Below, piece by piece: positions 3,785 to 64,000 of a stretch of DNA of 64,000 nucleotides (position 1 is the stretch's first letter; every line of letters begins with the position of its first letter). The position numbers were made by a program, and so were the translations under genes. Source of the stretch: Cephalotus follicularis (Eukaryota > Streptophyta > Magnoliopsida > Oxalidales > Cephalotaceae); contig BDDD01003342.1 in NCBI GenBank assembly GCA_001972305.1, positions 118,176 to 182,175 of the forward strand, written 5' to 3'. The notes beneath the pieces are model-generated. The model worked only from the letters and a program-made list of their open reading frames with translations. It was not told the DNA's origin and searched no databases.

Positions 3785-4160
3785 CATTTCTGCTGCGCAA
3801 AGCGTCGACGGTGTCTGTTAAAGCGTCGACGCTTATGTTACCGTTACGGGTTGTATTTGAATTTTCTCGCATAAACCGCATGTGCTTTTATCTGGGTGTC
3901 GACTCTTTGGTATAAAGCGCTGACGCTTTACCTTGAGCGTCGCCGCTTTGAGTTCTTCAACTAATTCCACAAGTCTCTGTTTCAAACCGCTGATGCAAGC
4001 TTCTTAAGCATTGATGCCTTGGTCCAAACCGCTAACGCTTTATATAAGACCTTCGACGCTTTGTGCAGTTTTGCTTTATCAACCGCAGAAGCTTGTCCAA
4101 TGCTCACGTCGGTTTACAGACAAAGCACTGACACTTTAATTCCAACCATCGGCGCTTTGT
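3785..4160 (-). repeat. GCGTCGACGC palindrome array in the LTR
   Basis: About ten degenerate copies of AAAGCGTCGACGCTTT, spaced irregularly by 20 to 45 bp. The copy at 3821-3834 (AAGCGTCGACGCTT) is a perfect 14-bp palindrome. Confidence 0.8.
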
Positions 4161-4270
4161 CCTGTTTCTGCACTTCTTTATTTTGTTTATCTTTTACTTG
4201 CACAGAAAGTAACAAAGTTAAATGCAAATTTGTAATCATTAAAACTTATGATTGAGACTTAAAGTCAACA

Positions 4271-5688
4271 CATTGTATGGGCTTGGGGTATCTACCACCA
4301 GGAACATCATCTGCACCTGGGTCTGGCGTGGAGCCGTGCTTGCAACCACGGACAGGTCGATGGATCCCAGAGGATGGACCATCTCCCTTGCAAAGCCAAC
4401 CAGTGGGGCCTTCATAGGCTTCAGCTGATCAACCGGTATCCTCAACTGATCATATGCATGTTTGTACAGGATATCAGTCGAGTTGCCGCTGTCAATAAGG
4501 ATCCTCTTCATGGTGAAAAGCTCCACTAGAAGAGTTACCACCACTGCGTCATCATGAGGAAGACGTACTCCCTCGTAGTCCACCTCCGAAAAGGATATAA
4601 CCTCATATTCTCCACCAATCCTCAGCCTGTTGCTGTGATGAACCTGTTGCACAGCAAGGGGCTGCCTCCCATAAGCTTTCCTAGCATTCTTGTGGTCGCC
4701 ACCAGACCCCACCCCCCCAGAGATAGTGTGGATGACACCTCTGGGTTGCTGTTGCTACTCCTCTTGTTGCCGAGGAGCCACTTCTCACCTTTTCTCCCTT
4801 CTTCCCTGGGGAGCATCTCTGTCCACATACTTGTGTAGGTGCCCCTTTCGAATCAGGTCCTCAATCTGATTCTTCAACTGCCTGCATTCCTCGGTATCAT
4901 GTCCGTGGTCACGATGATACCTGCAGAATTTTCCACATCCCTCTTCTCGGCTGGGAACCTCATCTTTTCAAGCCATTGGATGGGGACCTTATCTTGCTCC
5001 ACTGCAAGTATTCTAGTACGAGTGTCCAAGAGGGGGGCAAAGTTATTGTAGGATGGGACAGGCGCCCCTCTCCTGGGTGAATCACCCATCCTGGATACCT
5101 TGTGTCTGAGGTCGTCCTTTGGCAGGTCGGACCTCTCTTTCCTCTTCTCTTTCTTCTCGGGACCGTTTCGTGAACGCTCCCCCTTCTCCTCCTGATAGCC
5201 CGACCGGGGTGTTTTGTGTTTCCTGGCTGCCATCTCTTCCTCAGCATTGACATACCTCTCTGCTCTCGTCAGCAGGTCTTCCATGTCCACCGCGAGTTTC
5301 TTCAAAAGGGTGAAGGTGAAGGATGAGTTGTTCCTCAGGCCACTGTTTAATGCAGCTAGGGCGAAGGACGGCTCTAGATCTTTCACCGTGAGAGACTCCC
5401 TATTGAACCTGGCGAGGTAGTCCCTTAGGGACTCATCTCTCCCCTACACCACATTGATCAAGTGGGTAGAGTTCCTTCTCTGAGTAGTGCTGTTGAGGAA
5501 TTTGGTGACAAATAGCTCCGTAAGCTGGTCAAAATCCTTCACCGACCTCTGAGCTAGGGTAAAGAACCATGACTGGGCGGCTCCAATCAACGTGGCCAGG
5601 AATCCTCAGCATAGTGTGGCGTCTGAGGCCTGGTGCACCAACATGGTTTGAATGTAGGTGCGCACATATTGGATGGGGTCCATGGTCC
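4271..5688 (-). pseudogene. Element A gag C-terminal part and aspartic protease
   Basis: The minus-strand block 4712-4239 contains the retropepsin signature ILIDSGNSTDILYKH, with the catalytic DSG retained. Upstream, 5386-4874 gives a lysine/arginine-rich gag tail corresponding to element B residues that run into EQDKVPIQW, and the gag core continues up to 5688. The equivalent gag zinc-knuckle-like [11 protein letters not shown] motif can be read around 4860-4930. The frame is broken by several stops and shifts. The protease start is cut off from the rest of pol by the solo LTR at 3134-4270, and the gag core is cut at 5688 by the second solo LTR. Confidence 0.85.
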
Positions 5689-6666
5689 TGTTCACGTAAA
5701 AAGAAAGTTTTAATATTTATAGCCGCAAGTGCACGGATCATGCAGTAACGGGTCGAACGCAGGGAAACGTAAATTAATTATAATTTATTCAACCTAGGCG
5801 AAGTATACCGATTTTGAGATAAACTATTAAAACCTACTCCTAATTATGCAAAATAAAATAATTAAACAAAACAAGTAATGAAAACTTTGAGAATTAAAAA
5901 CGTTGAAGTTGAAATATTAAGAAATAAAGCATGCAATAAATAAAAATAAAGAGAAAATATAATAAAGAGACGGTTTTGGGGTAAAGAAACTCACCATAGA
6001 TTGTATTGAACAATTCCATTGAGTTGTATGATCATACCTTGATAAACAACGAGAGCTAGGTCTATACGGAGTGCGGCGGTGATGACAAGACGTATGAGTA
6101 GACATGCTAGGTCTATACGAAGTATGGCAACGATAACGGCAGCAATCGACTTCTTCTTGAAAGGCGTCGACTTCTTTTGATAAAAAGTTACAGGACAATT
6201 TCGATCAAAGACATCGATGTGTTGTGTGAAAAACGTCGATCTGCATGAAAGGCGTCGACTCCTTTTGGAAAGACATCGACTTCTTTTTCATAGCTCCTTG
6301 AAGATTGTTGTGTTGCCCAGAAAAGACGTCGACTTCATCTGGAAAGACGTCGACGTTATTAGTTAAACCCAGAAAAAACATCGTCTTACATGAAAGACAT
6401 CGATGCGTTTGATGACAGCAAGAGAAGACGTCGACTTCTTCTTGAAAGACGTCGACTTCTTTGCCCTGTTTTCTGCAGAATTTGGCATTTCTTCAATCTT
6501 TACACCTTTAACTCCAATTTTGCACACTTTTGGGTAGTATTTTTGCACTTTGGTGATTAAACACTTGTACCTGAAAATCATTAAAACACAACCAAAGTAG
6601 TCTATTCCAAGTATAAAAATATAACAAATATATCATTAAAAAAAACACACATTTTTATGCTAAACA
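5689..6666 (-). mobile_element. Solo LTR, Athila-like Ty3/gypsy
   Basis: This 978-bp insertion in the gag of element A has perfect flanking GGTCC duplications (5684-5688 and 6667-6671). On the minus strand it runs from TGTTTAGCATAAAAATGTG to CGTGAACA. Its last part reads TTTCCCTGCGTTCGACCCG and CCGTGCACTTGCGG, a layout typical of LTR ends that precede a GGCGCCGTTGCCGGGG primer site in Athila-like elements. No internal sequence remains. The boundary call is firm; the lineage is inferred from the 3' end only. Confidence 0.8.
6165..6460 (-). repeat. GACGTCGAC palindrome array in the Athila-like LTR
   Basis: Some ten variants of AAAGACGTCGACTTCTTT and AAAGACATCGATG occur in under 300 bp, several ending in a C/T-rich spacer. 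Confidence 0.8.
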
Positions 6667-7447
6667 GGTCCCATCGTATTTATCAAGGCTAGGGAGCCGG
6701 AATCCGCTGGGGATTCACTCCGTCATGATCTCGGGTGTAAAGGGGTGGGCGCTAAGGTTGGGCACCTCTGACATATATCCCCTTGGCTTCTCTGCTCCTT
6801 GGAACCTTCTCTCCACCTCGACAAGTCTTCTATTCATCGCTTGCTCCACATCCTCAATGTTTCTAGCCCTGCTAGAAACACGTGACCCCCAGGCCAGTGT
6901 AGCCGCGCGATCCGCCCTGCTTCCCTGGACCGTCGTTGCTCTGCGTGAGGCATTAGACTGCACTTGTGCATCCTCTGTACCTCTGACTCCCCCCTGAGGA
7001 TCCACGTCCATGGCTTGGTACTCTGTATGCTCTCTCCTGGATCATTGGGTTGATCTCGGGCAGTTGAGGACTCTGCCCTCTGAGATGCATTGATCTCTTG
7101 TCTCCTCCCCAAGGGAATATTATCCCCTCACCGCATAGGAGGAAGTCTCTCTCCCCTAGGCAGGTTTCGCCTGGCACCTTGGGGGTGCCCCATCTCCACC
7201 ACTGGCCTAACAAGGCCGCTTTTTCCTCTGCTATTTGCTTGGACAGGTCTGGCCTGGGCCTGGTTGGCGAGGTTGGTTGCCAACGGATTTGGGAGACGGT
7301 GCATTCCTTGGAGGAGCTGATTGAGCTGCTCCCCAGTAATGGGAGCTTGTTCTCGGGCCACAACTTGGCCAGCCTCTGGGAGAAGAGGTGGGACCTCCTG
7401 TTGTTAGCTGCTTGTGGCTCCAAACTGGTTGTTCTTTCTCGGAGCAT
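6667..7447 (-). pseudogene. Element A gag N-terminal part
   Basis: The ATG at 7447-7445 matches the gag start of element B (21227) and is preceded by the PBS leader. The frame begins MLRERTTSLEPQAANN and must shift to continue as EQAPITGEQLNQLLQGMHRL, which matches EQAPITREQFSQLLQGMERL in element C, so there is a frameshift in the first 40 codons. A following block holds EVERRFQGAEKPRGYMSEVP, equivalent to B EVEKRLQGAEKPRGYLAEV. Gag is the structural capsid protein. The copy is inactivated by the frameshift, by stops and by the LTR insertion at 6666. Confidence 0.82.
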
Positions 7448-7472
7448 GATTCTTGATGGCTTTTTGCTGCGT

Positions 7473-10962: not shown

Positions 10963-10975
10963 TATGCCCCCCTGG
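10963..10975 (-). other. Polypurine tract of element B
   Basis: The minus strand reads CCAGGGGGGCA directly before the 3' LTR start TGATATAG. This is where plus-strand DNA synthesis would be primed. Confidence 0.75.
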
Positions 10976-11369
10976 TCATTCTCCTCTGGCCTTGACAGAG
11001 GAGGAGGAGCAGAGTTGAGAGCCGGAGCCCGGGCGGTACTCCAAGGAAGGACCCCTCCTGGACTGACCAGGGGAAGAGGAGAGGTAAGCCTGTGTGGCCT
11101 TAAAAGGGGCCCTATTCTTTGTCGACAGGCTTGACCCAAGCCTTATGCGGGCCCACCCTTATAACCCGTGCCAGATGTTGATTATACTGGGCGTGACAGA
11201 TGTCGTTTCGCGCCGTGCCCCATCAATTAATACCCATCATTACGCCGTAAATTACGAAATTTGAAAGCCTGACGCTTCGATGCACGCGCATGACCTTTCG
11301 CTTTTCGCTCCTGATTTGACAGGAGGATCTCCACCATTGAACGCAACTGGAATCTACGGTCCAGATCTG

Positions 11370-14157: not shown

Positions 14158-14224
14158 GGGTAGTTTTTTTGTTTTGCCTTTTGTATTTTTCTTTCTTCTC
14201 GGCCGTGTAATCTTTTTGATGATT

Positions 14225-17709: not shown

Positions 17710-17712
17710 CCG

Positions 17713-37098: not shown

Positions 37099-37254
37099 TG
37101 TAACGCCTGGAAATTTCATGTATTGTAATTTCACAATGTAAATGTACTTTATTTGTGGAATTAATAAAAAGATGGATTTTCTGAATTTGATGATGTTGAT
37201 TTTAAATCAATTAAGTACTTAGAAGTGTGATTGCTTAGTATGTACACTAAGAGT

Positions 37255-37420
37255 TGTCGACTGGTACAGTAAACCAGCCGACTGGTTGACTGCGTATGGG
37301 AGCAGTCGACTGGTGGGATGAACCAGTCGACTGGCCAACTGTCGAGCCACGTGGTAACGATCTGCCAGGCCAGCAACCGGCTGTTGGGTGTGGACAGCCG
37401 ACTGGATCGTGCTCTGTTTT
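37255..37420 (+). repeat. CCAGTCGACTGG palindrome array, distal block
   Basis: About eight copies of CAGTCGACTGG or CAGCCGACTGG. The one at 37323-37334 (CCAGTCGACTGG) is a perfect 12-bp palindrome. The array lies about 225 bp upstream of the TATA box. Confidence 0.88.
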
Positions 37421-37644
37421 GTTGCATGTGACAAAAATCACATGCCACAGCTGACAGATGGAAGTGGGTGCCATCTGTGTTTCATGCAGCTAAAGGAAAG
37501 GATGAAGAGGACACCTGTGTTTCATGCAAACCTCATAGGGGGGAGGAGTTTAGACCTGTGAGTGTGTGCTTGCATGTGGAGAAGGAAAGTGGCATTTAAT
37601 GCCATGTGAGACGAGCTAAGGAAGAGAGGGAGAGAAACTCCCTG

Positions 37645-37651
37645 TATAAAA
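37645..37651 (+). promoter_or_regulatory. TATA box of the element F LTR
   Basis: TATAAAA in CTCCCTGTATAAAACGTC. Confidence 0.65.
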
Positions 37652-38224
37652 CGTCTTCCCTCATCTCCTTCGTCCTGGCACTGAAAAGTCTAAGAACCAA
37701 AGAGGACAGTAGAGAAAAACACAGAGAAAAGAGGGAAGGGAGTGTTTCTCCATTGTTGAAGCTTGGAGCTCGGGTTGGAGTTATTGGACTGTTCTTGGAG
37801 CTACTGGGCTTGGAGTTAGAACTTCTGAGGAGCCCAAAACGTCACTGTTGGGACACAAAGAGGTGGACTTATAGATTCCTAAATTGGAATCAAAAGGTAG
37901 GGGAAGTTATGATTGTATTTTGAGTTCAATATTACTGCATGTTATGCAATTGGTTGTCTGCTAGTATAAGCCACGATGCTCAGTTGATATGACCACGATT
38001 GTTGCTGGTTTTACGTATGCCATGTTTATTGTTGAGAATCTTTGAACTTATGTACATGCATGTTGAGTTTTATCTTAGTATTGGATTACTGGATAAGATG
38101 CATGCTACTGTTGTGTTCTATGAGACTGTGAAGGGCTGAATGATGATTTTCTGCCTTAAGAACATATATTGGATGCTAGTAATGATCTGTTTAAGTGGTA
38201 TATATCGGATTGCATGCAACTGTT

Positions 38225-38400
38225 TCCCAGAATAGTCGACTGTCGAAGGAAAATACCCGACTACTCAATCGAAACGGTCGACTATTGAAGGGTGACAGTC
38301 GACTGCCTGATGAACCAGTAGGCTGGTAGAAGGAACCAGTCGGCTACTCATGTACTGAATTCCCAGAATAGCCGACTGGTGGAGAATCCAGCCGACTGCC
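38225..38400 (+). repeat. AGTCGACTG array, proximal block of the element F LTR
   Basis: A second cluster of about nine AGTCGACTG, GGTCGACTA and AGCCGACTG variants downstream of the TATA box. Confidence 0.82.
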
Positions 38401-39712
38401 AAGCTGCTATTTGGTCCCCTCTTGCTTAAATGAAGCGCGACGATCCCGATTTCGCTTAGGATGCATTAGAGCATTTGTATGCATTGCATATACACTATTC
38501 ACTGTCTGTTTGGTTACTGTTTGTAAGTCGTTTATGATTTCTAAAGTTGTGATGTTTAGAAATGCATATGTCAACTCGGAATATGCTATTTTGAGTATGA
38601 AAATGTGTATTGGTTAATAACGTATTTTCGAACGGACTGGTAAACGATTTTCACTACTGAATTGTTCAATGTATTTCTACTACTGAAATTGCATATTTCA
38701 AATATTTATTACTTCAGAAATATTTTAAAATGGACTGTCTGTTGTTGATCTAATCGATCACCACTGTATCGTTGACTGCACTGTTTACTGTTTAATTCAC
38801 TGTTTGCTCTGTGAATTGCTATGTGATTGTGCTTGAGCCACTGGTTGCATGGCGGAGGCTGCCAGCGCTGGCTAGTGGTAGGGTTGACCTGGGGGCCAAG
38901 AGTATGGCTGGGTGACTCACTGTACTGTACTGTTGCCTCGCTCAGTCGCCTGGAGTAGGGACCGGAGTGGGAGTGTAGCGTGGGGCCAGGAGTTGGCGGC
39001 GTTACATATACTGCCTGACTGTTGTGGTCCTCTTACGGACATACTGTACTGCCTGTTGGTCCTTTTTGGACATTACTGTGTCTGTGGATGTGGTCCTGGC
39101 CAGATCACTACTGTACTGTTCTCACATACATATATTTTCTTATATATGTACCCACTGATATTTTACTGTACTGCAAAATATATATATATTTCTCATATAT
39201 ATATAAACTGGTATTCCTGCACTGCATCATTTATGCATACATTACATGACATGCATTAACGTTGATCCCGAGCTACTTTTATGACTTAGCCGAGTGAGGA
39301 CAAAGGCTAACCCCCTACTTTACAGATTGATGCGGTGGACCGGTTGGACTGGCAGGGACGAAGAACAAGTTGTTATGATGTTTTGTTCTGGTTTTACTTT
39401 CTCATGTTTTGTAATAAACCGAGCTTGTTTAAGGACCAATGTATTGTACTTACGGTTTTGTTAATGATGGGATTTAACCTTGTATTGTGATCACGCTCCG
39501 TTTTGTGGGCTATTAACAATGATTAACTTGTATTGGGTAACGTGCAGTATGGGATGCACGTTACGAGCTTACAGCTTATGAATTTTTATGCTTCCGCAAC
39601 TGATGTTCCTTGGAAAAGTTTAAATTTTATGGTATTTGCATAAGCTGTATTTACATGTTAATTGCCTTTACCGCTTTAATGTTGCCTTCTCGTTAAACGG
39701 GGTGTCACAGAG

Positions 39713-39724
39713 TGGTATCAGAGC
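39713..39724 (+). other. Primer binding site of element F
   Basis: TGGTATCAGAGC, three bases after the LTR, is the perfect complement of the 3' end of initiator tRNA-Met. Confidence 0.88.
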
Positions 39725-39820
39725 ATATTCCATATATGCTTAGCTAGGATTCTTTCCTTGGCAATTAATGAATTATTTTCCTAAAGTCGTGACTAACCGT
39801 CAATCCTCTTATAGGAACCA

Positions 39821-41143
39821 ATGGACCAAAGGAGAACACGTGCTAGGGCTAGAGCTGTTGGAACTAATGCCCCTGAGGAAGCGAATGTTCCGCAAGGGAT
39901 GAATATTCCCCAAGATGACAGAGATCCGATGGCTCGGATTGCTGACTATTTTCAGCAACTGATGGCCTTTAATAGGGCTAATGCGGAGGAGATGCGCCAG
40001 TACTACGCGCAAGCTCGACCACAACATAGGGCTCCCGACTACTACCCGGGGGAGGATGGGAACCAGTTTGGGAGAGATATCAAGAAGTTCATGAGGCTGA
40101 ATCCACCCAGTTTCTGGGGGGAACTTGATGCTACTGTTGCTGAGAGATGGTTGAAGGACCTGGAGAAAATCATTGAAGTGATGGACTGTACTGATACTCA
40201 AAAGCTGAAGTTTGCTGTGTACCGCCTATGGGGTGAGGCCACTCATTGGTGGGAGATGGTCAAGGCAAAATGGGAATCACAGAGGCTGGACAACACTTGG
40301 GACAGATTCCAGACAGAGTTCTTGGAGGCTTATGTTCCTCGTATTGAGCAAGAGCGACGAGAGACGGAGCTCTTGGAGTTACGACAGGGGGAGATGACTG
40401 TGGCTGAGTATCAAGCAAGGTTCATGGAGCTGGCCAGACATTCACCTTATCTGGTAGCTGATGAGGAGAAGAAGATTCGGAGATTCCTGAGAGGTCTGCG
40501 ACCGGATCTTCGATCAAGAATTAGAGCTATGGAACTAGGGACTTTTGTGGAGGTTGCTCAGAAAGCAAGACTGTTGGAGACAATATCCAGTGAAGACCGG
40601 GCTGAGAGAGCTCGTGCACCGCAGAGTAAACAGAGTCCTACACAGTCCCGACCGGCATCGTCAAAATGGCAAGATGGTGGATCTCCGACAAAGTCGTCAA
40701 AGAACAAGTCTCAACAGACAGCTTCACAGGGCACTCCTAGCCAAGGGAGTAATGCTAGATCAGGAGGTTGCTATTATTGTGGTCGCACAGGCCACCAACA
40801 GAAAGATTGCTGGAGGTTCAATGGTTGGTGCTTGAGGTGCGGGGCACCTGGTCATTCAGTGAAGGACTGTCCGAAGAGTTCTGCTACAGCGCTTACTGGG
40901 CCGGGGAGTAGTAGTGGTGCGGCGGCAGGACCGTCGAAGAGGAAGGACGCCGGCAAGGGCATCGCAAAAGGTAGAGTTTTTGTGCTTACTCAGACAGAGG
41001 TTCCAGAGTCGACTTCTATTGTTGGAGGTACTCTGTACATATATGGTTTTTCTGCTAGGGTATTGATGGATTCTGGAGCATCGCATTCTTTTATATCTGC
41101 ACGTTTTGCATCTTGGTTAGATGTCACCCCTGACTGCATGTAA
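39821..41143 (+). pseudogene. Element F gag and protease start
   Basis: The best preserved frame in the window: 440 residues from MDQRRTRARARAVG. Residues 105-205 are the retrotransposon gag (capsid) domain with WLKDLEKIIEVMDC and MTVAEYQARFMELARH. Two CCHC zinc knuckles follow, at 317-330 (CYYCGRTGHQQKDC) and 337-350 (CLRCGAPGHSVKDC). The aspartic protease begins with VLMDSGASHSFI (catalytic DSGA at 417-420). A TAA at 41141 cuts the protease, and pol continues in the same frame after it. The two-knuckle gag fused to protease in one frame fits Tekay/Del chromoviruses. Confidence 0.93.
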
Positions 41144-43354
41144 TACATACTTGATGTGAGTACACCGACCGGAGCTTCTATGTATACTGATTCGATATAT
41201 AGGATTTGTGAGATGTCTATGGCAGGCATTCCCTTGTATGCAGATTTGGTAGTGCTGCCTATCCGTGACTTCGATGTTATATTGGGGATGGATTGGCTAT
41301 CACCACACCGTGCTCGTATGGATTGCTATAATAAAGCTGTGGATTTTTGTCTACCCGACGGAATGACTTTTCAGTTCAAGGGAGACAAAGGGTTCTTAAC
41401 ATCGATCATATCCTTTATTCGAGCATCGAGATACCTAGAGAAGGGATGCAAGGGATATCTGGCCTATGTGATTGATCGAAGGAAAGAGAAAGGCTTGAGC
41501 TTGGAGGAAATTCCAGTTGTGTGCGAATTTCCATATGTATTTCCTGATGACTTGGGATCTTTGCCACCGAAGAGAAATATGGAGTTTGTTATCGATCTTA
41601 TACCAGGTACAGCTCCTATTTTTAAAGCACCATATAGAATGGCCCCTGCAGAATTGAGTGAACTGAAATTGCAATTGCAAGATCTGATCGATAAGGGTTT
41701 TATTCGACCTAGTGTTTCCCCATGGGGAGCGCCTGTACTGTTTGTCAAGAAGAAGGATGGGTCGATGAGGCTCTGCATCGATTACAGTATGTTGAACAAG
41801 GCAACTATCAAGAACAAATACCCTTGACCCCATATCGAGGAATTGTTTGACCAGTTGCAAGGATCAAAGGTGTTTTCCAAGCTCGACTTGAGGTCAGGTT
41901 ATCACCAACTGAGAGTAAGGGAAGGAGACATTGAGAAGACTGCCTTCCAGACATGGTATGGTCATTACGAGTTCTTGGTGATGCCGTTCGGTGGTACCAA
42001 TGCACCAGAAGCTTTTGTGTCATTGATGAATGATGTATTCTGACCATACCTGGACCAGTTTGTTGTGTTATTTATCGATGACATACTGGTATATTCGAGG
42101 AGTGAGGAGGAGCACGCTCATCATCTAAGGCTAGTATTGCAAGTTCTCAGAGAACATCGGTTGTATGCCAAGTTCAACAAGTGCGAGTTATGGCTTGATC
42201 ATGTGAACTTTCTCGGTCACATCGTATCTGGGGAAGGCTTGACGGCGGATCCATCAAAGACTGAAGTGGTACGAGACTGGCCGCAACCAAAGAATGTGAC
42301 GGAGGTGCACAGCTTCCTTGGATTGGCAAGATATTACAGAAGGTTCATCCATAACTTTTCAAGGATAGCCGAACCCTTGACTAGACTGACCCAGAAGAAA
42401 ACCCCTTTTGTATGGGACAAAGACTGTGAAGCTAGTTTCCGTGAACTGAAGGATCGGTTAGTTTCTGCTCCTGTCTTGGCATTACCTTATGGTAATGAGG
42501 GCTTTGCAGTCTACAGTGATGCATCAGGTAAGGGTTTGGGCTGTGTATTGATGCAGCGAGGCAAAGTGATTGCATATGCCTCGAGGAAGCTGAAACCGTA
42601 TGAAGAAAACTACCCGACTCATGACCTTGAGCTTGCAGCTATTATCTTCGCCTTTCAGAAGTGGAGACACTATCTTTATGGGGCGCATTTTGAGATCTTT
42701 ACCGATCATAAGAGTTTGAGGTACCTGTTTTGTCAGGACACACTGAACATGAGACAACGCAGGTGGGTAGAATTCTTTAATGATTATGATTGCAGTGTTC
42801 AGTACCACCCGGGGAAAGCGAATGTAGTCACTGATGCCTTGAACCGTAAGGCTATGGTTGCCAATACAATGGTGTCGCAATGGAAGATGCTAGAAGACTT
42901 CCAAGAGTGGTCTCCGTTCAATCAGTCCCCGGGGATCTTTGTGGCTGACATGCAAGTACAGCCTGTGTTACTGGATCACATCAGGGATGCACAACCACAC
43001 GATCCGGAGCTGCAACGGATTCGGGAGAACCTGGACTCAGAATCTGATTTTTTGGGTACATGCTGATGGTATTCTGAGATATCAGGGACGTGTGTGTCTT
43101 CCGAATGAACCAGGGTTGAAGAATGAGTTACTTCGCGGGGCTCATAAATCTCTGTACAACATTCACCCTGGTAGTACAAAAATGTATCAAGATATGAAGA
43201 AGACTTACTAGTGGCCTGGCATGAAACGAGAGATCGCCGAGTATGTGGAAAGGTGTTTAACTTGCCAGACAGTCAAGGCTGAGCACCAGAGACCGGCAGG
43301 TTTGCTACAACCTTTACCAATTCCAGAGTGGAAATGGGAACATGTTACGATGGA
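41144..43354 (+). pseudogene. Element F pol: protease end, RT, RNase H, integrase zinc finger
   Basis: Continues the gag frame. The open blocks are 41156-41827 (protease end, then RT with [12 protein letters not shown]), 41843-42043 ([20 protein letters not shown]) and 42065-43066. The last carries the catalytic [11 protein letters not shown], then RNase H with Asp152, Glu189, Asp214 ([11 protein letters not shown]) and Asp257. TGA stops at 41825 and 42041 split it. Near 43047 an extra T in a six-T run shifts the frame; the next block (DGILRYQGRVCLPNE) is the start of integrase with its zinc finger (HKSLYNIHPGSTKMY... CLTCQ), broken by a TAG at 43209. It ends at EHVTMD, fused to LTR sequence. 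Confidence 0.92.
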
Positions 43355-44075
43355 TGTTGGCGGCGTTACATATACAGCCTGACTGTTGTGGTCCTCTTAC
43401 GGACATATCGTACTGCCTGTTGGTCCTTTTCGGACATTACTGTGTCTGTGGATGTGGTCCTGGCCGGATCACTACTGTACTGTTCTCGCATACATATATT
43501 TTCTTATATATGTACCCACTGATATTTTACTGTACTGCAAAATATATATATATATTTCTCATATATATATAAACTGGTATTCCTGCACTGCATCATTTAT
43601 GCATACATTACATGACATGCATTAACGTTGATCCCGAGCTACTTTTATGAATTAGCCGAGTGAGGACAAAGGCTAACCCCCTACTTTACAGATTGATGCG
43701 GTGGACCGGTTGGACTGGCAGGGACGAAGAACAAGTTGTTATGATGTTTTGTTCTGGTTTTACTTTCTCATGTTTTGTAATAAACCGAGCTTGTTTAAGG
43801 ACTAATGTATTGTACTTACGGTTTTGTTAATGATGGGATTTAACCTTGTATTGTGATCACGCTCCGTTTTGTGGGCTATTAACAATGATGAACTTGTATT
43901 GGGTAACGTGCAGTATGGGATGCACGTTACGAGCTTACAGCTTATGAATTTTTATGCTTCCGCAACTGATGTTCCTTGGAAAAGTTTAAATTTTATGGTA
44001 TTTGCATAAGATGTATTTACATGTTAATTGTCTTTACCGCTTTAATGTTGCCTTTTCGTTAAACGGGGCGTGTCA
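43355..44075 (+). repeat. 3' LTR fragment of element F
   Basis: Corresponds to 38994-39709 of the 5' LTR with few differences. It ends GGGGCGTGTCA and is followed by the GTTTG duplication. The join to integrase lies within a shared TTGGCGGCGTTACATATA block. Confidence 0.92.
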
Positions 44076-45275: not shown

Positions 45276-45394
45276 TGTTGACGATTAAGTCTCAATCCTT
45301 ATTTTGATGATAACATATTTGCATTTGACAAGTTTACTTGATGTGCAAGAAACTACAAGTTCAATACCAAAGCAAAATACCATCTGCAGAAGAA

Positions 45395-45930
45395 GACATC
45401 GACTCTCAAAGAATGACATCGACGTCCGTACAAGAAGACATCGATCCCTTCCACAAAGACATCGACGTCTTTAGTGCAAGATCAAAATACAATGAAGACA
45501 TCGTCCTTCCAGTTATGACATCGACGACCGTACCGAAAGACAACGACTACTTTCAAAATGACATCGACGTCTTTAGTGCCAGAAGCTACTGTTCGAAATT
45601 GCAATTGAAGACATCGATCCTATATGCAAAGACATCGACGTCAATACAAAAGACATCGATGCCTTTCAATAGACATCGACGTCTTTCTAGAAGCTACCTG
45701 CATTTCCCAGAAAATACATCGACTCCCACAGAAGAAGTCGATGTGATGTTCAAAGAGTCAAATGCTGGAGATTTCCCAGAAATGACATCGACGCCTTTAA
45801 AAAGACATCGGCGTCTTTTTAAATGAACAAGACCCGGGAAACCTGGAACGGCTAGTACACGCACTTCCAACGGCTATCAACTACAAAGACATCGACGCCT
45901 TTAAAAAAAGAAGTCGATGTCTTTATGTCA
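45395..45930 (+). repeat. GACATCGACGTC array in the family S LTR, copy 2
   Basis: About twenty copies of AAGACATCGACGTC and variants. At 45455-45472 the copy AAAGACATCGACGTCTTT is palindromic apart from one base pair. The array ends about 90 bp before the TATA box. Confidence 0.88.
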
Positions 45931-46017
45931 GCAGAAGACAAATTCAAAGATTGCAACTACACATTATTAAATCAAAAGCTTCCATGATGTATGCAACGGC
46001 TACAAAACCTTTGTGGC

Positions 46018-46024
46018 TATAAAA
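46018..46024 (+). promoter_or_regulatory. TATA box of solo LTR 45276-46565
   Basis: TATAAAA in GTGGCTATAAAAGGAAG, just downstream of the array. Confidence 0.65.
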
Positions 46025-46570
46025 GGAAGACTGAAACCTCAGAGAACTACACTGAACTATAACAATTCAGAATCATTCACATCAATTACACAACATCAAG
46101 AGAGAATTCATATCCAAGCATACTAGTGTGTAAAATGCTCAAAGTGCTCTATAGTGCTCTAACAAGATTCTAAAGCTCTATTCTTTGAGATTGTCTGAGT
46201 GTTTCTTATTGAGAGCTGTATTATTCATATCAACCTATTTGAGAGGTTATCTTGTAAACACTTTCATATCTTACTTGTAAAAGAGGAGAATCCTCTAAGG
46301 CTTTGAGGTCAAGGTCTTGTGATTGAGGTCAATCACGAAGTTGTAAGGTGTAACGAATTGCTGCCTTAATCAATTCGACATAGTGGAAACTCAAGGAGCT
46401 CCCTTGGGAAAAGTGGACGTAGGCAAGAGTTAGCCGAACCACTCTAAATTTCGGAGAAGTTTTTCTATCCCTTCACTCCTTTCCTATTAAAGTTTTAAAT
46501 TCCTAATATTTACTTCAATATTCAATTCACCCCCCTCCTGTAAATTGCAAGAGTGTTTTATTTCAGTATT

Positions 46571-51082: not shown

Positions 51083-52269
51083 TGTCACACCCCGTTCCCA
51101 TAACTACAATAAAAGTGGTGGCAATCAACATATAAATCCGGCTTATGCAATGTACCATAAATTTAAAACTTTCCATAGCCATTAACAACTTGCGGAAGCA
51201 TTTAAATATAAGCCGAAATAAAATGTGACATGCATCCCATACTACATGCTACAACGATAAACATCATCAAAGTTAACTGCCCTTAAACGGAGCATGAACA
51301 ATATTCATCAATAACATCGATTCATTTATTACAATTATCCAAAAACGTTTCTCAAAAGTAAAACAACATAAACTCCACTTTGCTCCACGGAGCTCAACGG
51401 TAATAATCCGCTGCATCAACCTGAAATCAATCTGAAACTGTAGGGGGGTTAGCCTTTGTCCTCACTCGGCTAAGATATAAACATGATTTGGGGTCAACGA
51501 TAAAGAATGCTATGTAATGAATGCAACATGATGTAATAAATACTATATCCCGATGCATATATATATATTATATATATATATACATATGTACCCAACCACA
51601 ATGTCACAGTTCACGATGTCACAATTCACGGTCTCAAACAAGTCCAAAGGACTACACAATACTCGGTTCACGGTTCACGGTGGGTACAAAGAGCATCGCC
51701 AACTCCTGGCCCCAACGTCGTACTCCTGTCATCGGCCCCGACTCCGGACGGCACGAAGCAGGTCATGGCACAGTGAGTCACCCAGCCAACTCCTGGCCCC
51801 TGAGTCAACCCGACCACTAGTCATCGCTGGCATCTCCGCCACGCAACTAGTACGGCCACAAACACAATCACAATCAATATCACAGTCAGTCATCACAATC
51901 ACAATCATCTCGATGCTCAATCAGTTTTCCAAGTAAATTTATAAAACAAAGATACTTGAAAACAAACTCATTTTCACGATGTCACGGTCCTCGATTCAAG
52001 ATGTTACAAAACCCATTTCACGATGTTTACAAAACTCAGTTCACGATGTTTGGAAGCCATTTTCACAGTCCTTCGAAAATATATATTTGCTTGAACATAC
52101 ATTTTCGTGTAAAATAATGATTTATAATGATCATGAATGCACTTCCAAAAGGATGATACAACAGTTCACAATCAATTATCACGATGCACAATCAGTTCAC
52201 CATAGTTCATAATCAACAATACACAGGCACAATCACAATTCAAGATGCATACACATGCCCACAATGCAA

Positions 52270-52780
52270 GACAGACACAAACAATCGGCTGTCCCTCACT
52301 GACGGTCGGTTGTTTTCCTTCAACAGTCGGCTGTCCTAAACTGGCAGTCGGCTGCCCACACTCAACAGTCGGCTGTCATCCTTGACAGTCGACTGTTCAT
52401 ACCCAACAGTCGGCCGCTGGCCTACAGCAGTCGGCTACTCAAGCCTCTGCAGGCATTTCTCAGTCACACACATGGACAGTCGACTGGCTCCCAAGCACAG
52501 TCGGATGGATCCATTGAGTAGTCGGATGTTCATACTGAACAGTCGACTGGCGCACTCGAGCAGTCGACTGTCCTCTTGGACAGTCGGCTGGATTCTGCAG
52601 ACAGTGCAGAAAAACAGCAGCACAACAAAGCCACAACTCACAACGATCCATTCTAACACACAACGAATCATAGCGTCGACCTTATCTCTAAGTGTCGACG
52701 TTTATCACGAAGCAGGACTCATTCTCCGTATAACAATCTATAGCGTCGACCCTTCTTTCCTAACCGTTGACGGTTGAGCG
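52270..52780 (-). repeat. CAGTCGGCTG and GCGTCGACC arrays in solo LTR G
   Basis: About twenty CAGTCGGCTG or CAGTCGACTG copies lie between 52280 and 52600. Three copies of the other motif, AGCGTCGACC or TGTCGACG, follow at 52670-52760, so one LTR holds both motif types. Confidence 0.85.
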
Positions 52781-53489
52781 AACCAAAACATGGTTCCTTC
52801 AACATGTCTCAAAACCGATCGAGTTCAAGGCATACAACACATGCAATCTGATCTACAATCATCGTAAATCACAATATGCATAATGGGTTAACAATTCATA
52901 GAAACCCTAACACAGTCACACAATTCACAATCCACAGCCCACAATCATTCCAAGACACGATATGCACGCATTTCATCAAGGAACATTTATTATAATTGAA
53001 CTCAAACCACATTTATAAAATCCCCTACCTGTTACAGCAGTAACAACCGTACAGTCGAGCTGCACGTTCAATTTCCGAACCTTTTCGATAATCGTTGAAC
53101 CGAAGCAGGTTCTTGTCGATTGATCAAGTCCCTCACTGCCAAATCCAATTGCCACTCACACACTGCACATACAACACATTTCCGTTATGTTCGACACACA
53201 AAACATTTCCGTCGCCGAAACGTCGGTCGGATTCCAACCGACACAACCAGGCGGTGAAACACCCATCAACGGGTTCTACATTGAACGGTCTACTCAAAAC
53301 TAGTCGAGACTCGCCAGGAATCGGCGCCGAAAGCCGCGCCACGGCCGACAGCGAGTCGTGACTCACTGAGTCAACTCGCCGGACCTCCACAGGTCCGATC
53401 ACCACCCAAAACGCTACACATTCACCAGTCCTACACGTCACTGCCCGTGACTCGCCAAGACTCGATGCCAAACGCGCCGTCTCAGATGA

Positions 53490-53520
53490 CAGTGAGTCGA
53501 CTCGCTGAGTCGACTCAGTC
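53490..53520. repeat. Paired GAGTCGACTC palindromes
   Basis: GAGTCGACTC at 53494-53503 and TGAGTCGACTCA at 53506-53517 are perfect palindromes with the GTCGAC core, in the GC-rich part of solo LTR G. Degenerate ACTCGCC and GAGTCGTGACTCA copies surround them (53310-53470). Confidence 0.75.
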
Positions 53521-54189
53521 AAGCCATTCCGGCCAAATCACGCCTCACCGGTGGTGGAAATGGGTAGAGCGGACCTTCTACACCATAACCCACGCCATCC
53601 GCGACGCTAACGGCGGCGGGAATCGCCGGGAGGAGGCGCGACAATGGCGGGGAAGAAGAAGAAAAAGAGAAGAAAAAGAGAAGAAGGGGGAGGAGGTTAC
53701 TGGTCGGTGGCGTGCCTGGGTCGACCGGCGTGCTCTCCCAGTCCAGTAGCTGGCTCCAGCGTCCTCTCTCTTCCTCTGCTCTGATCTCTCTCCCAATCTC
53801 TCTCTCTCTCTCTCTGGCGCGGGCGCCTGGTGCGCCCGCTGTCTCTTTCTTTGCACGGGCGCGTGATGCGCCCGTGTCTCTCCCTATCCCTTCCTTTATT
53901 TTACTTCCCCCTTAGTATTTTCTGGTAAAATACTAAGGTCTGGGTCCCGATTTTTCCGTGAATCGCGACATAAATTATCCGAACAACCACCAAAATAATT
54001 GCAATAATATTGCGAGCATTTGGGCTTTATCGTCGCGCATTAAAAATAGGCTTTATTAGCCGTCTTAGCTAACACGATTACGACTTAAATGCGTAATGCC
54101 TTTTTATTACACCGGGCCTCTATCGATTTTATTACGATCGTACACGTACCAATTTCATAATATTTATTTATGAAATTCGGGGCGTTACA

Positions 54190-58042: not shown

Positions 58043-58429
58043 TGTAATGACCAGAATTTTCATTAGAGATACTATTTATGGAATATGATTACTATGGTTA
58101 AGGTTGGAAAATATTTCAAGGGACCCGTGATATGACCCTAACGCTCGAGAGATTCGGGGTTTCCGCTCCCTGGTGAACAGACGGGGGGTCCCGCTACCCG
58201 GACAGCGGGCAGGGGCTCGGGGGTAGCACCCCCGGAAGAAAATCAAATTTGTCTATTTGTTTTGGACTAGAAATTTGTTTGTTATATGCTGAGGAATATG
58301 TTGTTTGCCTTGTAATTTGGACTTTGAAAGAACATAACTTGTTCTTTGATGTGAAGGAATGCTTAAGCAAAACATACAAGCAAAATAGTAGGATCAAAAC
58401 AGACAAAATATGTAAAACGGTCTTTTTGG

Positions 58430-58795
58430 CGTCAACGCCTATATTATATACGTCAACGTTCTGGGTTTGAGCACAGGTTCTGGGCATTTCAAGATGATTC
58501 TCGTCGACGTGATGTTTTTTATCGTCGACGTGCTAGGGATTGCATATACGCGTCAACGCCTTTGTGAAAGACGTCAACGCCAAGAGGTGCAATTTCGGAC
58601 AGTGGATATAGAGGTTAACGTGAAACCTTCATAGCGTCAACATCAAACCGGAAGGCGTCAATGTCATGTTTAGATGTCAACGCGAATAAGTGCACTTTTC
58701 GGCCTACATCATTGGATGTTGATGCGGAGAACCATTGAAGTTAACGCACAATGACATAGACATCAACGCCATGCGTAAGCGTCGACGCCCAAACC
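58430..58795 (+). repeat. CGTCAACGCC / CGTCGACG array
   Basis: About sixteen variants of GGCGTCAACGCC, ATCGTCGACGTG and AGCGTCGACGCC, the same motif class as 3785-4160, about 250 bp upstream of the TATA box. Confidence 0.85.
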
Positions 58796-59047
58796 AGCAG
58801 ATCAGCTACAAAATCTAACTTTTTGTCTTTTTGTGAGTTAATTATCTTTATTTAGGGACACTTGTCAAGCAAGGGAGTGAAGACTTATGATATTTTGATA
58901 GAAAGGGGACATGTGTCATCTTTTGAATGGAAGGAAATCTATCACATGGGCAACTCAATGGACAAAGTCACATGGGTGACATCATCTTGGAGCAAGGTGG
59001 CATGGTGACTCACCCCATGCATGCTTGCTCTCCAAGTTTAGCATCCC

Positions 59048-59055
59048 TATAAATA
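59048..59055 (+). promoter_or_regulatory. TATA box of solo LTR 58043-61032
   Basis: TATAAATA in ATCCCTATAAATATATG. Confidence 0.55.
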
Positions 59056-59554
59056 TATGTTTAGTTTGGCATGAAAATGGTTGGTTTTTCTGAGGAGAAT
59101 TCGGTTAGGAGAAGAGAGAAAGGGATTAAATCAAGGTAAGCAAATTTCATACCCATTTTTATCAAAGTTCCTCTGTTTTACTTCCAAATTATGTAGCAAA
59201 TTGTTTTATTCATATCTTTCTTAATTCTTGATGAAATTTTGAATGGTTTAATGTTTTAGAAACTTCAAGATGTCTTCTTTAACTGATATGTTTTATTCTT
59301 TTCAAAATTCTATCGAATTCTTGATGAGAATCCATGTTTCATTTTACTGCTCATGTCTTATTTTCATATGGAACCAGCCACTTTAAAAATTCATAACGGA
59401 TTCGATTCTCAACCAATTTTTATGAACTTGAGCTTTCTGAATTCGTGAAGATGCCTAATTTAATGTTTATGTTTTAAGTTTTCTCCGAAAGTGTTTATTT
59501 CTATATGAAATTCAAGATTTAGAAATGTTATACAAAGCTATTTTATGAATGTTT

Positions 59555-59870
59555 TGAGTTAAATTACTCAAAGTGATGAAAATGCTTCATGAATTGTGAA
59601 AGGGAATGAAATGAATGTTTCTACATGAGAAACCAGTTTTAGAAATGTTGTAGGAAGGTGTTTTATAAATGTTTTATGAAATGATTCTATGAATGCATTC
59701 GAGTTAATTACTCAAATGAAGAGAAATGTTTTATGAATGCTTTGAGTTAATTACTCAAATAAAGAAAAATGTTTTATGAATGCTTTGAGTTAATTACTCA
59801 AATGAAGAGAAATTTTTTACGATGCTTTAAGCTGATCACTCAAAGTATTAAGAAATGTTTTATGAAATGA
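59555..59870 (+). repeat. TTTGAGTTAATTACTCAAA array
   Basis: About five units of roughly 55 bp, each with AAATGTTTTATGAATGC and a palindrome with TTTGAGT/ACTCAAA arms. It lies downstream of the TATA box. Confidence 0.85.
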
Positions 59871-61032
59871 TTTTATGAGAATGAACCACCCTTGGATTAT
59901 GATCCAAGGGGAATGAATCCAAGATGGATTAATGTTAATGGAGCGAAGAGTGCTCACGGATATGCATGTGTTGTAAGGATAGTAATCGGGGAATGCACAA
60001 TGCCCTGGTAAAGCGGTGTTGAAAGGGTTCATTAAGTTTTTATGAAATGTTCTGATTCATGTGATATGATCAGAAAAAGGAAATGAATGTGAAATGTTTT
60101 GGTTTTACAAAATATACCAGAAAATGATTTTAATGACGTTTTCAAGTATGGTTGGGTTATATACCAGAAAATGTATTATTTTATGAAATGTTCTGATTTT
60201 ATGAAAACTATCAGAAACAATGGATTTTAACAGTGAATTATTCTAGTCTTATAAAACTAGAAGATGATTTTCAATAATGTTTGAAAATGTATGATTGCAA
60301 ACGTTTTGATAAAGATTATCAAAAACAACGGATTTCAATGACGTTTTATGACTATGATCCTTACTGGCTATTTGAGCTCACTCCTTTCAATATCTTGTTT
60401 TCAAATGATTTTCCAGGAGATGTCGAACGTAAAAGTGCAAGCTTTAGAGGAAGTTCGTAAATGAAGTGTCGGAAAGGAAGTATGTTATGCTATGAAGTTT
60501 TGTGTTTAATGTCATGCGTTAATGTTTTCCGCCATGTAACGTTTTATGATAGACGGTGTATAGATGTCAAAGTAAGGAAATGAATGTTATAGGCTATGAT
60601 GTTTTCATGTAAGATGATGATATCAAAAGTTATTGAACATACTTGAGAGTATGAGAAGTTAATGGTAAAGGTGAGCAATGAATATGACTGTATTATGATG
60701 TAATAAGTTTATGTTTTCCGCTGTGTAATGTTATATGCTAAGTGATGTACGGATGTAAAATGTATTAGAAACGATCATGATAATGAGAATATGATGTTTT
60801 GAAATTTGGTGTTCAAGGATGTAAGCATATTGTGATCCTGTGAAGTTATTGAATATGATGTGATGTTTCTATTAAGTAATGATGTTAGGTTTTAAATCTA
60901 AGTTAAGATTAAATGGTTAATGGATCGTTAAATGATTAAACGATTTGATGGTTAATGGTTCACCCCACGTAACGCACCGATTCCTAGAGGCTCGTTTTGA
61001 GGTTAAAGCATACTCGGGTCGGGGACGTTACA

Positions 61033-61545: not shown

Positions 61546-61884
61546 CCGATGCAAGTATGTATTCAAGTACCAAATGTATAAAATTCAAGGATATATCAAT
61601 AAAGTCAAATTTTTTCGGCAAAAACTGCTTGTTCAAGGTCATAGTTCCAAGTTTGCAAGGGACCGGAGGCCCAATATTCATTTCCTTAAACCTCTAAACA
61701 GCCACCAATCAACTCCCTTAATCAAGAAGCTTAAATACAGGCTTGTCCGACCTCGCTCCCAAGAGAGCAATCAGAGCAGGCCTAGATACAGAATCCAAGC
61801 TCTCCAAGTCTTATGAAGACACAAAACTCCTATGAGAGTAAAACAAATTCAAACTAAAGTCTCGAACAGACCAAGGTCTCGAAT

Positions 61885-62110
61885 CAACAAAGACTCCTTC
61901 CGAGGAGCACCAAAGACTCTTTCCGAGGAGCACTAAAAACTCCTTCCGAGGATCACCAAAGGCTCCTTCCTAGGAGCGCTAAAAACTCCTTCCGAGGAAC
62001 GCTAAAGAATTCTTCTGAGGAACTCCAAAGACTCCTTCCGAGGAGCGCTAAAGACTCCTTCCGAGGAACGCTAAAGACTCCCACCCGAGGAGCACCTACA
62101 AGTATACCTA
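61885..62110. repeat. Tandem array in the 3' UTR of element C
   Basis: About ten units of some 28 bp with CTCCTTCCGAGGAGCAC. Same place as the 14748-15062 array of element B but a different sequence; CTCC...GGAG arms are inverted. The flank 62160-62400 is homologous to B 14560-14740 on the opposite strand. Confidence 0.85.
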
Positions 62111-63133
62111 TAAAAGACTTCTAAGGAAGCAATAAGACTCCCAAAGGAGCAAACACAAGTCGTCAATTCCATGAGAATTAATCAAATCAAACCAACATCG
62201 TGTCTTGAGAGGCAAATCCATAAGAACTCGCAATGATCAAGTTCATCGGACCGAGCACTTTGAAACAAGTGTCCCTACGAGGACTGCAAGCTCAAACGAC
62301 CTAGTCTAAAATAGAACGAACTAGACGAGAACTTGCTCGACAAACCCGTAAGAACTTTTCCGAGCAGACCTTAAACTTAGTCTGCGAACACACAAGAACT
62401 CGCAAAGACTAAGTATGGTTGCCCAAGTACTTTTTAAACAAAGTGTTCTAAGGAGACTAGAAAGCATGGGTAATTAGGTTTGAAAATTGTAAGACCAAAA
62501 CATAAAGTCTGAAATAGACTAAGTCGAAATTCCTAAGGGAAATTGCAACGTTCACATGAAGTACAGGTCAAACTTTGTCACTTACTGTAGGAAGTCTAGA
62601 GGGGGGGTGAATAGACTTATAAAAATATACTAGCAATATTTCTAGAAACAATTTAAACACTATCACACAATTGCGGAAATATAAAGAGTGTAGGGTTGAG
62701 AGAGAATGCAAACAGATGTATAGTGGTTCGGCAAACCGCCTACGTCCACTCCCCAAGGCTTCCCCTTGAGTATTTCACTATGTATGCCCCAATCTGGGCT
62801 TGAAACTCCAACCGAGCTTCAACGACCTTCGCTCCAACCAAGCGAATACAAATTTGCTCCAACCGAGCAATACAAGAGACAACCTCTCTTGTTTATATGT
62901 GAAATAAAGTGTTTGAACGATTACAAATTCTCAAGGAATTTTTTTACAATTAGGCTCAATTCTCACAAAGCTCTTAGTGATAGAAAATGTAAAATGTAAA
63001 GGCTTTGTAATGAGTGTGATTGCTTTGATGTGATCTCTTTTGATGTTTAGAGTGCTTGGAATTGTACTTAAGATAGCTTGAATGAATATTCACTTTGAAT
63101 GCTTGATTACTTGTGCAAGAGCTCAACTTTGGC

Positions 63134-63140
63134 TTATATA
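63134..63140 (-). promoter_or_regulatory. TATA box of LTR 62557-63801
   Basis: TATATAA on the minus strand, about 40 bp downstream of the palindrome array. Confidence 0.5.
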
Positions 63141-63179
63141 CTTGTGCTTCCAACGGATCTATTTTTAAAGTTCTGGTAC

Positions 63180-63700
63180 AATCCAGTCGGCTGGATTCCT
63201 TGGGCAGCCAGCTGGATTTGATGGTGCGTATTTCAAATATAGTCGTTGGTGATGACAGTCGGCTGCTTCCTCTGGGCAGTCGGCTGGTGGAGCCTGGCAG
63301 TCGGCTGGTGCTCTGTTCCAGTCGGCTGGTTGAGTTAAAATTGGACTTACAGAAGCTACTGCCAAATGTTGCACAAATAGTGACAGTCGGCTAGATTTCT
63401 TGGCAGTCGACTGGTTGCCCCTGGCAGTCGACTGGTGCCCTGCTTCAGTCGGCTGGATGAGGTGTTGTGAAGATACAGAAGCTACTGCCTGAAATTGGCA
63501 CCCTTGGCTGTCGATTGGGCCTCCTTGGCAGTCGGCTGTCTTGGCCTGGCAGTCGACTGCTCCCCTGTGGCAGTTGGCTGGATCAAGTGTTCCTGCAGTT
63601 CCTGGAGTTTCTTGATGAACCAGTCGACTACTCATCCCATGGCAGTCGACTACTCATCCTTGGCAGTCGGCTGCCCAACCTTGGCAGTCGGCTGGATTGC
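63180..63700 (-). repeat. CAGTCGGCTGG array in the family S LTR, copy 3
   Basis: About twenty copies of GGCAGTCGGCTGG and GGCAGTCGACTGG with short spacers (CCTTGG, CCCTGT). The motif is that of elements F and G, not that of the other family S copies. The repetitive frames 63113-63394, 63165-63635 and 63467-63760 are translations of the array. Confidence 0.88.
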
Positions 63701-63801
63701 CCTGTACCTGTAGAAATAGCCTTTTGCACACTTTGGACACAAGATCAAGTGAGTATATGAAGTGATAGCTCGGAGAATTATGCATACAAGTAATATATGT
63801 T

Positions 63802-64000
63802 TGTTGTAGACAATTATGTCTCAATTCCTAGTTTTGATGATAACATTTTTGCCACTAATAAGTTTGTTTTGTGCAAGAGAAACAAAAACACAAAGCATAT
63901 AAAATCAACTGTAAACAGGCTGTCGACGCCTATGGAATTGTTAAACTTGAAGGAGGCGACGCCTATGAGATTGTTAAATTTGAAGCTGTTGACGCCTATG
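63802..64000 (+). mobile_element. LTR, copia type (family S, copy 4), cut by the window edge
   Basis: Starts TGTTGTAGACAATTATGTC and has TTTTGATGATAACATTTTTG. From 63920 it has three spaced copies of GTCGACGCCTATG (one as GGCGACGCCTATG, one as GTTGACGCCTATG), about 35 bp apart. Confidence 0.75.

Follow-up and report, generated by a model that had tools for sequence, protein, structure and literature searches.

Phased arrays of RYCGAC-type palindromes in long terminal repeats of otherwise dissimilar retrotransposons from Cephalotus follicularis

The closest described counterpart of the arrays reported here is the repeated motif (RM) of Sireviruses. According to Bousios et al. 2010 (PMC2829016), the RM occurs in 8–32 palindromic copies per element, mostly in the upper half of the long terminal repeat (LTR) and shortly upstream of the TATA box, where they form CpG islands, and its copies are conserved between divergent flanks. 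A CGG-CCG core is given there for 12 of 13 RMs, Tnd-1 being the exception; the Vitis RM is CGGTCGACCG and the Tnd-1 RM is ACAATCGATTGT. The same text lists a TATA box and a C-run near the LTR end for Sireviruses, calls the RM Sirevirus-specific and absent from classic copia elements on the basis of a comparison limited to Ty1/copia, and states that a common binding factor could not be named in 2010. In maize, the Sirevirus palindrome motif CACCGGACNNNGTCCGGTG lies in LTR cis regions and has been read via hairpins and small RNAs (Bousios 2016, as cited in PMC10760457). PMC10760457 also reports that, in the structured regions of Helitrons, no motif is more abundant than this palindrome, and it describes the cis-regulatory regions of diverse transposable element (TE) families as often being arrays of sometimes palindromic repeats; by this general statement, such arrays have precedents beyond Sireviruses. 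Here we describe palindrome arrays in seven LTRs, labeled I1, I2, I3, I4, F5, K45, and K63, in a 64-kb stretch of Cephalotus follicularis DNA (contig BDDD01003342.1, positions 118,176 to 182,175; the window), which consists of nested plant retrotransposons.

The arrays resemble the Sirevirus RM in their palindromic dyad and in copy number, which is at least 8 per element in I1, I2, I3, I4, K45, and K63 and 5 plus 8 in F5. The Vitis motif CGGTCGACCG contains the core of the window arrays, and Tnd-1 ACAATCGATTGT is near that core. In I1, K45, and K63 the array lies shortly before a TATA-like box, which follows the last copy by about 50–100 bp; a C-run near the LTR end is present in K45 and K63 and absent from I1. 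In contrast to the RM, the window arrays lack the CGG-CCG core and have RYCGAC-type cores, occur also in a Ty3/gypsy family (F5 and I4) and in two unassigned solo LTRs, and combine a pitch of about 21 bp with arm codes common to otherwise dissimilar LTRs. When the text of PMC2829016 was searched for spacing terms, nothing on the distance between RM copies emerged. As in the maize Sirevirus clusters, the palindromes are grouped in LTR cis regions, but the maize motif CACCGGACNNNGTCCGGTG differs. For the repeat arrays of other TEs, section 21 of PMC10760457 mentions neither a GTCGAC core, a 21-bp pitch, nor cross-lineage sharing. Searches of open-licence literature likewise found neither arrays of this kind described for gypsy LTRs, nor the 21-bp pitch, nor GTCGAC palindromes in retrotransposon LTRs, which is weak evidence of absence. 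The module proposed in an initial annotation of this DNA is partly known, since the copia-group arrays resemble the published Sirevirus feature (PMC2829016); what is apparently new is the RYCGAC-type core, the presence in LTRs of gypsy elements, the pitch of 21 bp, and the cross-lineage arm codes. Collectively, the window arrays are probably promoter palindromes akin to the Sirevirus RM, extended to groups of LTRs, Ty3/gypsy among them, that show no other detectable similarity, and with a putative role in host-factor binding.

The seven LTRs contain ordered arrays with a mostly regular pitch, a dyad in the consensus, linkers near background in most arrays, and arms shared across unlike LTRs. 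The explanation that we favor, with a probability of roughly 0.58, is that host DNA-binding factors, in the simplest case dimers, use these arrays as upstream enhancers; we infer binding, dimerization, transcriptional function, and selection from the sequence. Under this explanation, the arrays would act as enhancers in the upstream (U3) part of plant LTR retrotransposons. Each is a row of 12–18 bp palindromes, 8–18 in number (5 plus 8 in F5), whose core is of (G/A)(T/C)CGAC type. Since there is mostly one palindrome per 21 bp, or two helical turns, a host protein, in the simplest case a symmetric dimer, would bind in many copies on the same side of the double helix and drive transcription. 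Lineages that are otherwise unalike would have adopted the same few site types, probably by converging on the same host factors, and related LTRs would switch site type. The LTRs and their arrays are as follows.

3134..4270, minus strand: I1, solo LTR of 1137 bp, TG...CA ends, target site duplication (TSD) CATTG, breakpoint against 19025–19030, Sirevirus-like copia group
3748..4161, minus strand: I1 array, 8 copies, consensus AAGCGTCGACGCTTT, loose spacing
5689..6666, minus strand: I2, solo LTR of 978 bp, TG...CA ends, TSD GGTCC, breakpoint against 20439–20443
6136..6464, minus strand: I2 array, 11 copies, consensus TGAAAGACGTCGACTTCTTTTG
37099..44075, plus strand: F5, Ty3/gypsy element, TSD GTTTG
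37099..39709, plus strand: 5' LTR of F5, 2611 bp
37247..37410, plus strand: F5 array a, 5 copies of CCAGTCGACTGG type
38226..38404, plus strand: F5 array b, 8 copies of CAGTCGACTG type, pitch mostly 20–21 bp
39815–41140, 41144–41824, and 42044–43063, plus strand: F5 gag and protease open reading frames (ORFs) and reverse transcriptase-RNase H
45276..46565, plus strand: K45, solo LTR of 1290 bp, TG...CA ends, TSD GTATT, Sirevirus-like by its TATA-like box and C-run near the 3' end
45389..45926, plus strand: K45 array, 17 copies, AAAAGACATCGACGTCTTTA
51083..54189, minus strand: I4, solo LTR of 3107 bp, TSD TGTGT, F5 family
52275..52596, minus strand: I4 main array, 14 copies, ACAGTCGRCTG, pitch 20–21 bp with one 49-bp gap
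52666..52758, minus strand: I4 minor cluster, 3 copies of AGCGTCGAC type
53487..53522, minus strand: I4 pair GAGTCGACTC / TGAGTCGACTCA, 13 bp apart, including the palindrome at 53506
58043..61032, plus strand: I3, solo LTR of 2990 bp, TSD ATAAG/ACAAG (one mismatch)
58422..58794, plus strand: I3 array, 13 copies, GaCGTCAACGCC, 8 of 12 spacings 19–22 bp
62557..63796, minus strand: K63, Sirevirus-like LTR, end at 62557 approximate
63177..63700, minus strand: K63 array, 18 copies, TTGGCAGTCGGCTGG, final copy about 50 bp before TATATAAG

LTR bounds used in the copy, GTCGAC-count, TATA, and CpG analyses deviate from these final bounds by a few to tens of bases. Comparison of the window with itself identified I1, I2, I3, and I4 as insertions in other elements. 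By its end motif, I2 would be Athila/OTA-like and oriented as listed; by its terminal motifs, I3 would likewise have gypsy-like termini, resemble a Tekay-type chromovirus, and have the orientation listed.

All seven palindromes quoted in the initial annotation were located by string search of the window, at 3821, 6425, 6446, 37323, 45455, and 53506, with CGTCGACG at 58502 and 58523 in I3 and CAGTCGACTGG at 63404 and 63425 in K63. The excess of GTCGAC that it had anticipated was also present within the window, where 42 occurrences compare with a mean of 6.4 (maximum, 14) under a local order-1 model and of 9.5 (maximum, 17) under an order-2 model, with 200 runs each. The maximal-order (order-4) expectation of 28.7 is not independent of the arrays, because these raise the counts of GTCGA and TCGAC. 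The LTRs of interest make up 13.5 of 64 kb (21%) and hold 34 of the 42 occurrences, in a count that extends to 64000 and thus covers the start of a further LTR at 63797. Pairs of GTCGAC at a distance of 19–22 bp were observed 10 times, compared with none in 400 model runs. A chance origin of the excess was rejected, since the shuffle models never reached these counts or pairs.

Array copies were defined as hits of a position weight matrix (PWM) that was seeded on the core and then refined, which yielded 106 copies (8 in I1, 11 in I2, 13 in I3, 24 in I4, 15 in F5, 17 in K45, and 18 in K63). Exclusion of 12 of these, namely 10 I4 copies outside its tight array at 52286–52585 (14 of 24 copies) and 2 F5 copies outside its two clusters (13 of 15), left the 94 copies of the arrays listed above (I4 main array only) for the spacing, column, arm, and covariation tests. 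The arrays, described initially as having about 8 to 20 copies around each quoted palindrome, are ordered and contain 5 to 18; the palindrome at 53506 is instead one of two copies 13 bp apart, and the main array of its LTR had not been listed. That array lies about 1.6–1.9 kb within the 3.1-kb LTR.

Among the 94 copies, 59 of 86 successive spacings were 19–22 bp, and 40 were exactly 21 bp. The 27 larger gaps partly keep helical phase (resultant of 0.50 over periods of 9.8–10.8 bp, best period 10.9, jitter p of 0.0024), a signal to which hidden decayed copies could add. Arm complementarity was 0.74, 0.64, and 0.51 at 4, 5, and 6 bases from the axis, compared with 0.14–0.40 at the same distances for 12 shifted control axes, so that the dyad reaches past the hexamer. 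Long near-perfect palindromes, defined by at least 7 of 8 arm bases whatever the core, numbered 55 in the window, compared with 27 in 8 shuffles; in the spacing of the 34 non-AT ones there was no clear pitch, which emerges in the core-based search.

Column identity was high within the palindromes, whereas in most arrays the linkers fell to roughly the background level. For the 89 copies in the neighbor test, from which F5 array a was excluded as well, neighboring copies were barely closer in their linkers than distant ones. These findings argue against a recently duplicated satellite and for upkeep of the palindromes while the linkers drift. In a local alignment of F5 array b with I4, in which repeat registers can slip, identity was 77/92 (84%) in palindromes, 42/63 (67%) in linkers, and 858/1156 (74%) in the remainder of the LTR, with Fisher p values of 0.020 and 0.046. 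The consensus dyad, the conserved palindrome, and the near-background linkers would be compatible with a dimeric DNA-binding factor. A single ancestral satellite or tandem duplication that spread between elements and is now decaying without function would account for the near-constant unit length and for the internal segmental duplications of K45 (45392–45589 versus 45494–45697, 73%) and K63 (63253–63559 versus 63381–63694, 71%). It is nonetheless very unlikely, being disfavored by the linker comparisons and opposed by the presence of two arm codes and by array positions that differ between LTRs. The reduction to one ancestral satellite, named initially as the outcome that would speak against a regulatory module, was thus not seen.

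With the arrays masked, matches between LTRs were confined to the pairs I1-K45, I1-K63, F5-I4, and the two LTRs of a Retand-type element described below. K45 and K63 were placed in one group through I1, in which a single stretch matches each of them, and I2 and I3 had no masked match to other LTRs and no kin in the window. The seven LTRs therefore fall into four groups without detectable mutual similarity (I1/K45/K63, F5/I4, I2, and I3), and the candidate of seven independent lineages was rejected. The unrelated lineages proposed initially stand in that the arrays recur in LTR groups without other similarity; the three copia-type LTRs are one group, and the "solo LTR G" and "chromovirus F" of that proposal are one family. 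The Retand LTRs (10398–10962 and 21273–21837) contained no RYCGAC site, and so the arrays are not universal among LTRs.

Arm sequence followed a different pattern. AAAGAC...(G/T)TCTTT arms are common to I2 and K45 (similarity of 0.68, compared with 0.69 within arrays), and CCAG...CTGG-like arms to F5, I4, and K63 (0.56–0.61 between K63 and F5/I4). Within the copia group, by contrast, similarity was 0.28 for K45-K63, 0.29 for I1-K63, and 0.45 for I1-K45, against a background of 0.30–0.34. I1 and I3 have a CGTC|RACG arm type that is closer to the I2/K45 code (0.53 for I3-K45). Since K45 has the arms of I2, K63 has those of the gypsy LTRs F5 and I4, and K45 and K63 are unlike, arm code does not track LTR kinship in these seven LTRs, a small number for such a pattern. 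This is in line with the transferable or convergent module first proposed, but there are at least two arm codes rather than a single motif. Exact paired CAGTCGACTG patterns had no match in public viral contigs, and AAAGACRTCGACKTCTTT occurred in 11, with one match each, which we take as chance.

We tentatively extend the favored explanation, at somewhat less than even odds, to the proposal that plant LTR retrotransposons of both superfamilies draw on a few exchangeable enhancer sites of dimeric type, in the form of RYCGAC palindromes in helically phased 21-bp arrays, among which relatives switch and on which strangers converge. If this is true, the array type of an LTR would reveal the host factor on which the element relies, whatever the descent of that element.

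Consensus cores were GTCGAC, GTCGGC, ATCGAC, or GTCAAC. GTCGAC was enriched 33-fold in the arrays, and among its one-step variants GCCGAC was enriched 32-fold, ATCGAC 18-fold, and GTCAAC 6.6-fold (mainly in I3), compared with 0- to 1.8-fold for the other six. When the arms alone were scanned with the core left free, RYCGAC was found on either strand in 15 of 26 I2/K45 sites (background, 0 of 245) and in 29 of 72 F5/I4/K63 sites (background, 1 of 1291). The title of Xue 2002, a paper about barley HvCBF1 listed among the references of PMC3602543, contains the motif (G/a)(C/t)CGAC. This C-repeat/dehydration-responsive element (CRT/DRE) core of DREB/CBF proteins covers the three leading array variants, GTCGAC, GCCGAC, and ATCGAC, which together account for 65 sites in about 3.1 kb of array; it is evident in five of the seven LTRs and weak in I1 and I3. 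Monomeric DREB/CBF-type AP2/ERF proteins might therefore read RYCGAC, with the palindrome only offering the site on both strands. We retain this alternative as a rival, since an AP2 monomer has no need of long symmetric arms, but consider it unlikely: it would leave unexplained why there are two arm codes, why the arms reach as far as 9 bp on each side, and why I3 has GTCAAC cores. DRE sites are not known to be long palindromes repeated every 21 bp.

The dense CG sites might also attract methyl-readers or impede silencing, as in a CpG island, with the arms incidental. Observed/expected CpG was higher in the array than in the LTR remainder in I1 (1.4 versus 0.51), I2 (1.59 versus 1.13), I3 (1.53 versus 0.72), and K45 (1.48 versus 0.34). 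However, it was only 0.46–0.85 in the I4, F5, and K63 arrays, which in I4 and K63 is not above the remainder (1.17 and 0.48), and the arms are conserved; such a chromatin role is very improbable in our estimate. CpG decay alone predicts GTTGAC/GTCAAC as the commonest variant, which is true only in I3. In this 3.0-kb LTR (58043–61032), as a correction to the initial annotation, a central CG is limited to 3 of 13 copies, and 6 of 13 have GTCAAC.

A role at the RNA level, in which hairpins of the transcribed palindromes would be a source for small-RNA silencing or act for the RNA itself, has been proposed for maize Sireviruses, whose palindrome clusters show a small-RNA excess (PMC10760457, citing Bousios 2016). 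Array RNA was more stable than dinucleotide-model shuffles in 16 of 16 strand tests (z of −1.0 to −7.1; 25 shuffles each). Compared with shuffles of the linkers only, in which the palindromes were kept, there was no consistent extra stability (z of +1.3 to −2.5 in 16 tests, strongest for the I1 minus strand), and a hairpin as the selected feature was not supported. Further, compensatory covariation was absent, and the I1, K45, and K63 arrays, being upstream of the TATA-like box, are outside a transcript starting there. An RNA-level role is thus distinctly unlikely; the capacity to form hairpins seems to follow from the DNA site being palindromic and fixed, and small-RNA effects like those proposed for maize are possible as a consequence of the arrays.

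Several observations weigh against the enhancer explanation. The scope is one 64-kb window of one genome, and the PWM was seeded on the core. Spacing in I1 is loose, with a single 21-bp step and the remaining steps 41–96 bp. Left and right arms did not covary copy by copy overall (283 of 564, compared with 282.1 expected; p of 0.47), although I2 alone gave a p of 0.02, and palindromy is therefore a consensus property. Linkers of I2 and K45 were above background (0.43–0.47), with palindromes extending into those columns, and F5 array b was an exception in the neighbor comparison (0.40 for neighboring versus 0.33 for distant linkers). K45 and K63 had no direct match with arrays masked, even at E 10 pairwise, so that their kinship would depend on I1 as the sole link. 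The TATA scan placed no clear TATA-like box in F5, I4, I3, or I2. The enriched core variants are all transitions, and mutation bias therefore contributes. The arms-only scan was weak in I1 (RYCGAC in 2 of 17; background, 3 of 1377) and I3 (1 of 13; background, 1 of 1053), and 10 of 13 I3 copies are without a central CG.

Because a gypsy family in this genome has a similar architecture and the arm codes cross lineages, the question of the binding factor becomes one for a direct affinity test with two short probes. The findings also suggest convergence of retrotransposons on shared host switches, by which matched enhancers could become dispersed over the genome of a plant.

Assignment of F5 to Ty3/gypsy is based on PF03732, PF19259, PF08284, RVT_1, and RT_RNaseH hits in a Pfam scan of 30 of 61 stop-to-stop ORFs of at least 110 amino acids. 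Its gag-protease ORF (39815–41140) matches 29 proteins, 26 from Cephalotus follicularis (at most 93% identity, over part of the query) and 3 from Cuscuta, and a primer binding site-like TGGTATCAGAGC follows the 5' LTR. No integrase was found among the F5 ORFs scanned with Pfam, and the 3' LTR is without its 5' part; at 43063–44075 the integrase and the first part of this LTR have apparently been lost. The loss was probably recent, because the LTR remnants are 98% identical. The 5' end of K63 is apparently interrupted by another LTR of the copia group starting at about 63797. At 63797–64000, this apparent further Sirevirus-like LTR contains 33-bp repeats with GGCGTCGAC-like units and runs off the window end.

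Elsewhere in the window, 10398–21837 on the minus strand is a Retand-type gypsy element with LTR-like direct repeats that are 93% identical, RNase H/integrase pieces at 15579–17705, and, at 11517–12572, an antisense ORF that encodes a Transposase_28 (TRP28) domain. A tandem array beyond the integrase (14745–15060) matches the description of the Retand lineage in PMC11963269, in which family-specific tandem arrays lie between pol and the 3' LTR. The palindrome arrays of the gypsy LTRs are like these in being tandem arrays in plant gypsy elements; unlike them, Retand arrays lie outside the LTR, and the Retand LTRs of the window are without RYCGAC. A nine-copy 23-bp tandem array at 61883–62096 (AAAGACTCCTTCCGAGGAGCRC) is the counterpart of the 14745–15060 array in a related copy; its consensus had no dyad beyond chance in shuffling.

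The shuffling test for dyads covered 12 tandem units out of 42 Tandem Repeats Finder (TRF) rows. Values of p were at most 0.01 for the units at 34066, 25544, and 53805, 0.04 for 59678, and at least 0.10 for others, including 63924, 14786, and 61888. For K63 and I4, the TRF units gave 0.08 and 0.30, and the test thus has little power on single units. At 34066–34273 and 49247–49485, matching places of two related stretches carry 20/40-bp arrays of GAGGTC...GACCTC inverted units (consensus dyad p of 0.01). Three 40-bp units with a long dyad, CCAAGTGACATGTG...CACATGTCACTTGG, lie at 25544–25662, and the related stretch at about 51082/54190 is the place of the I4 insertion.

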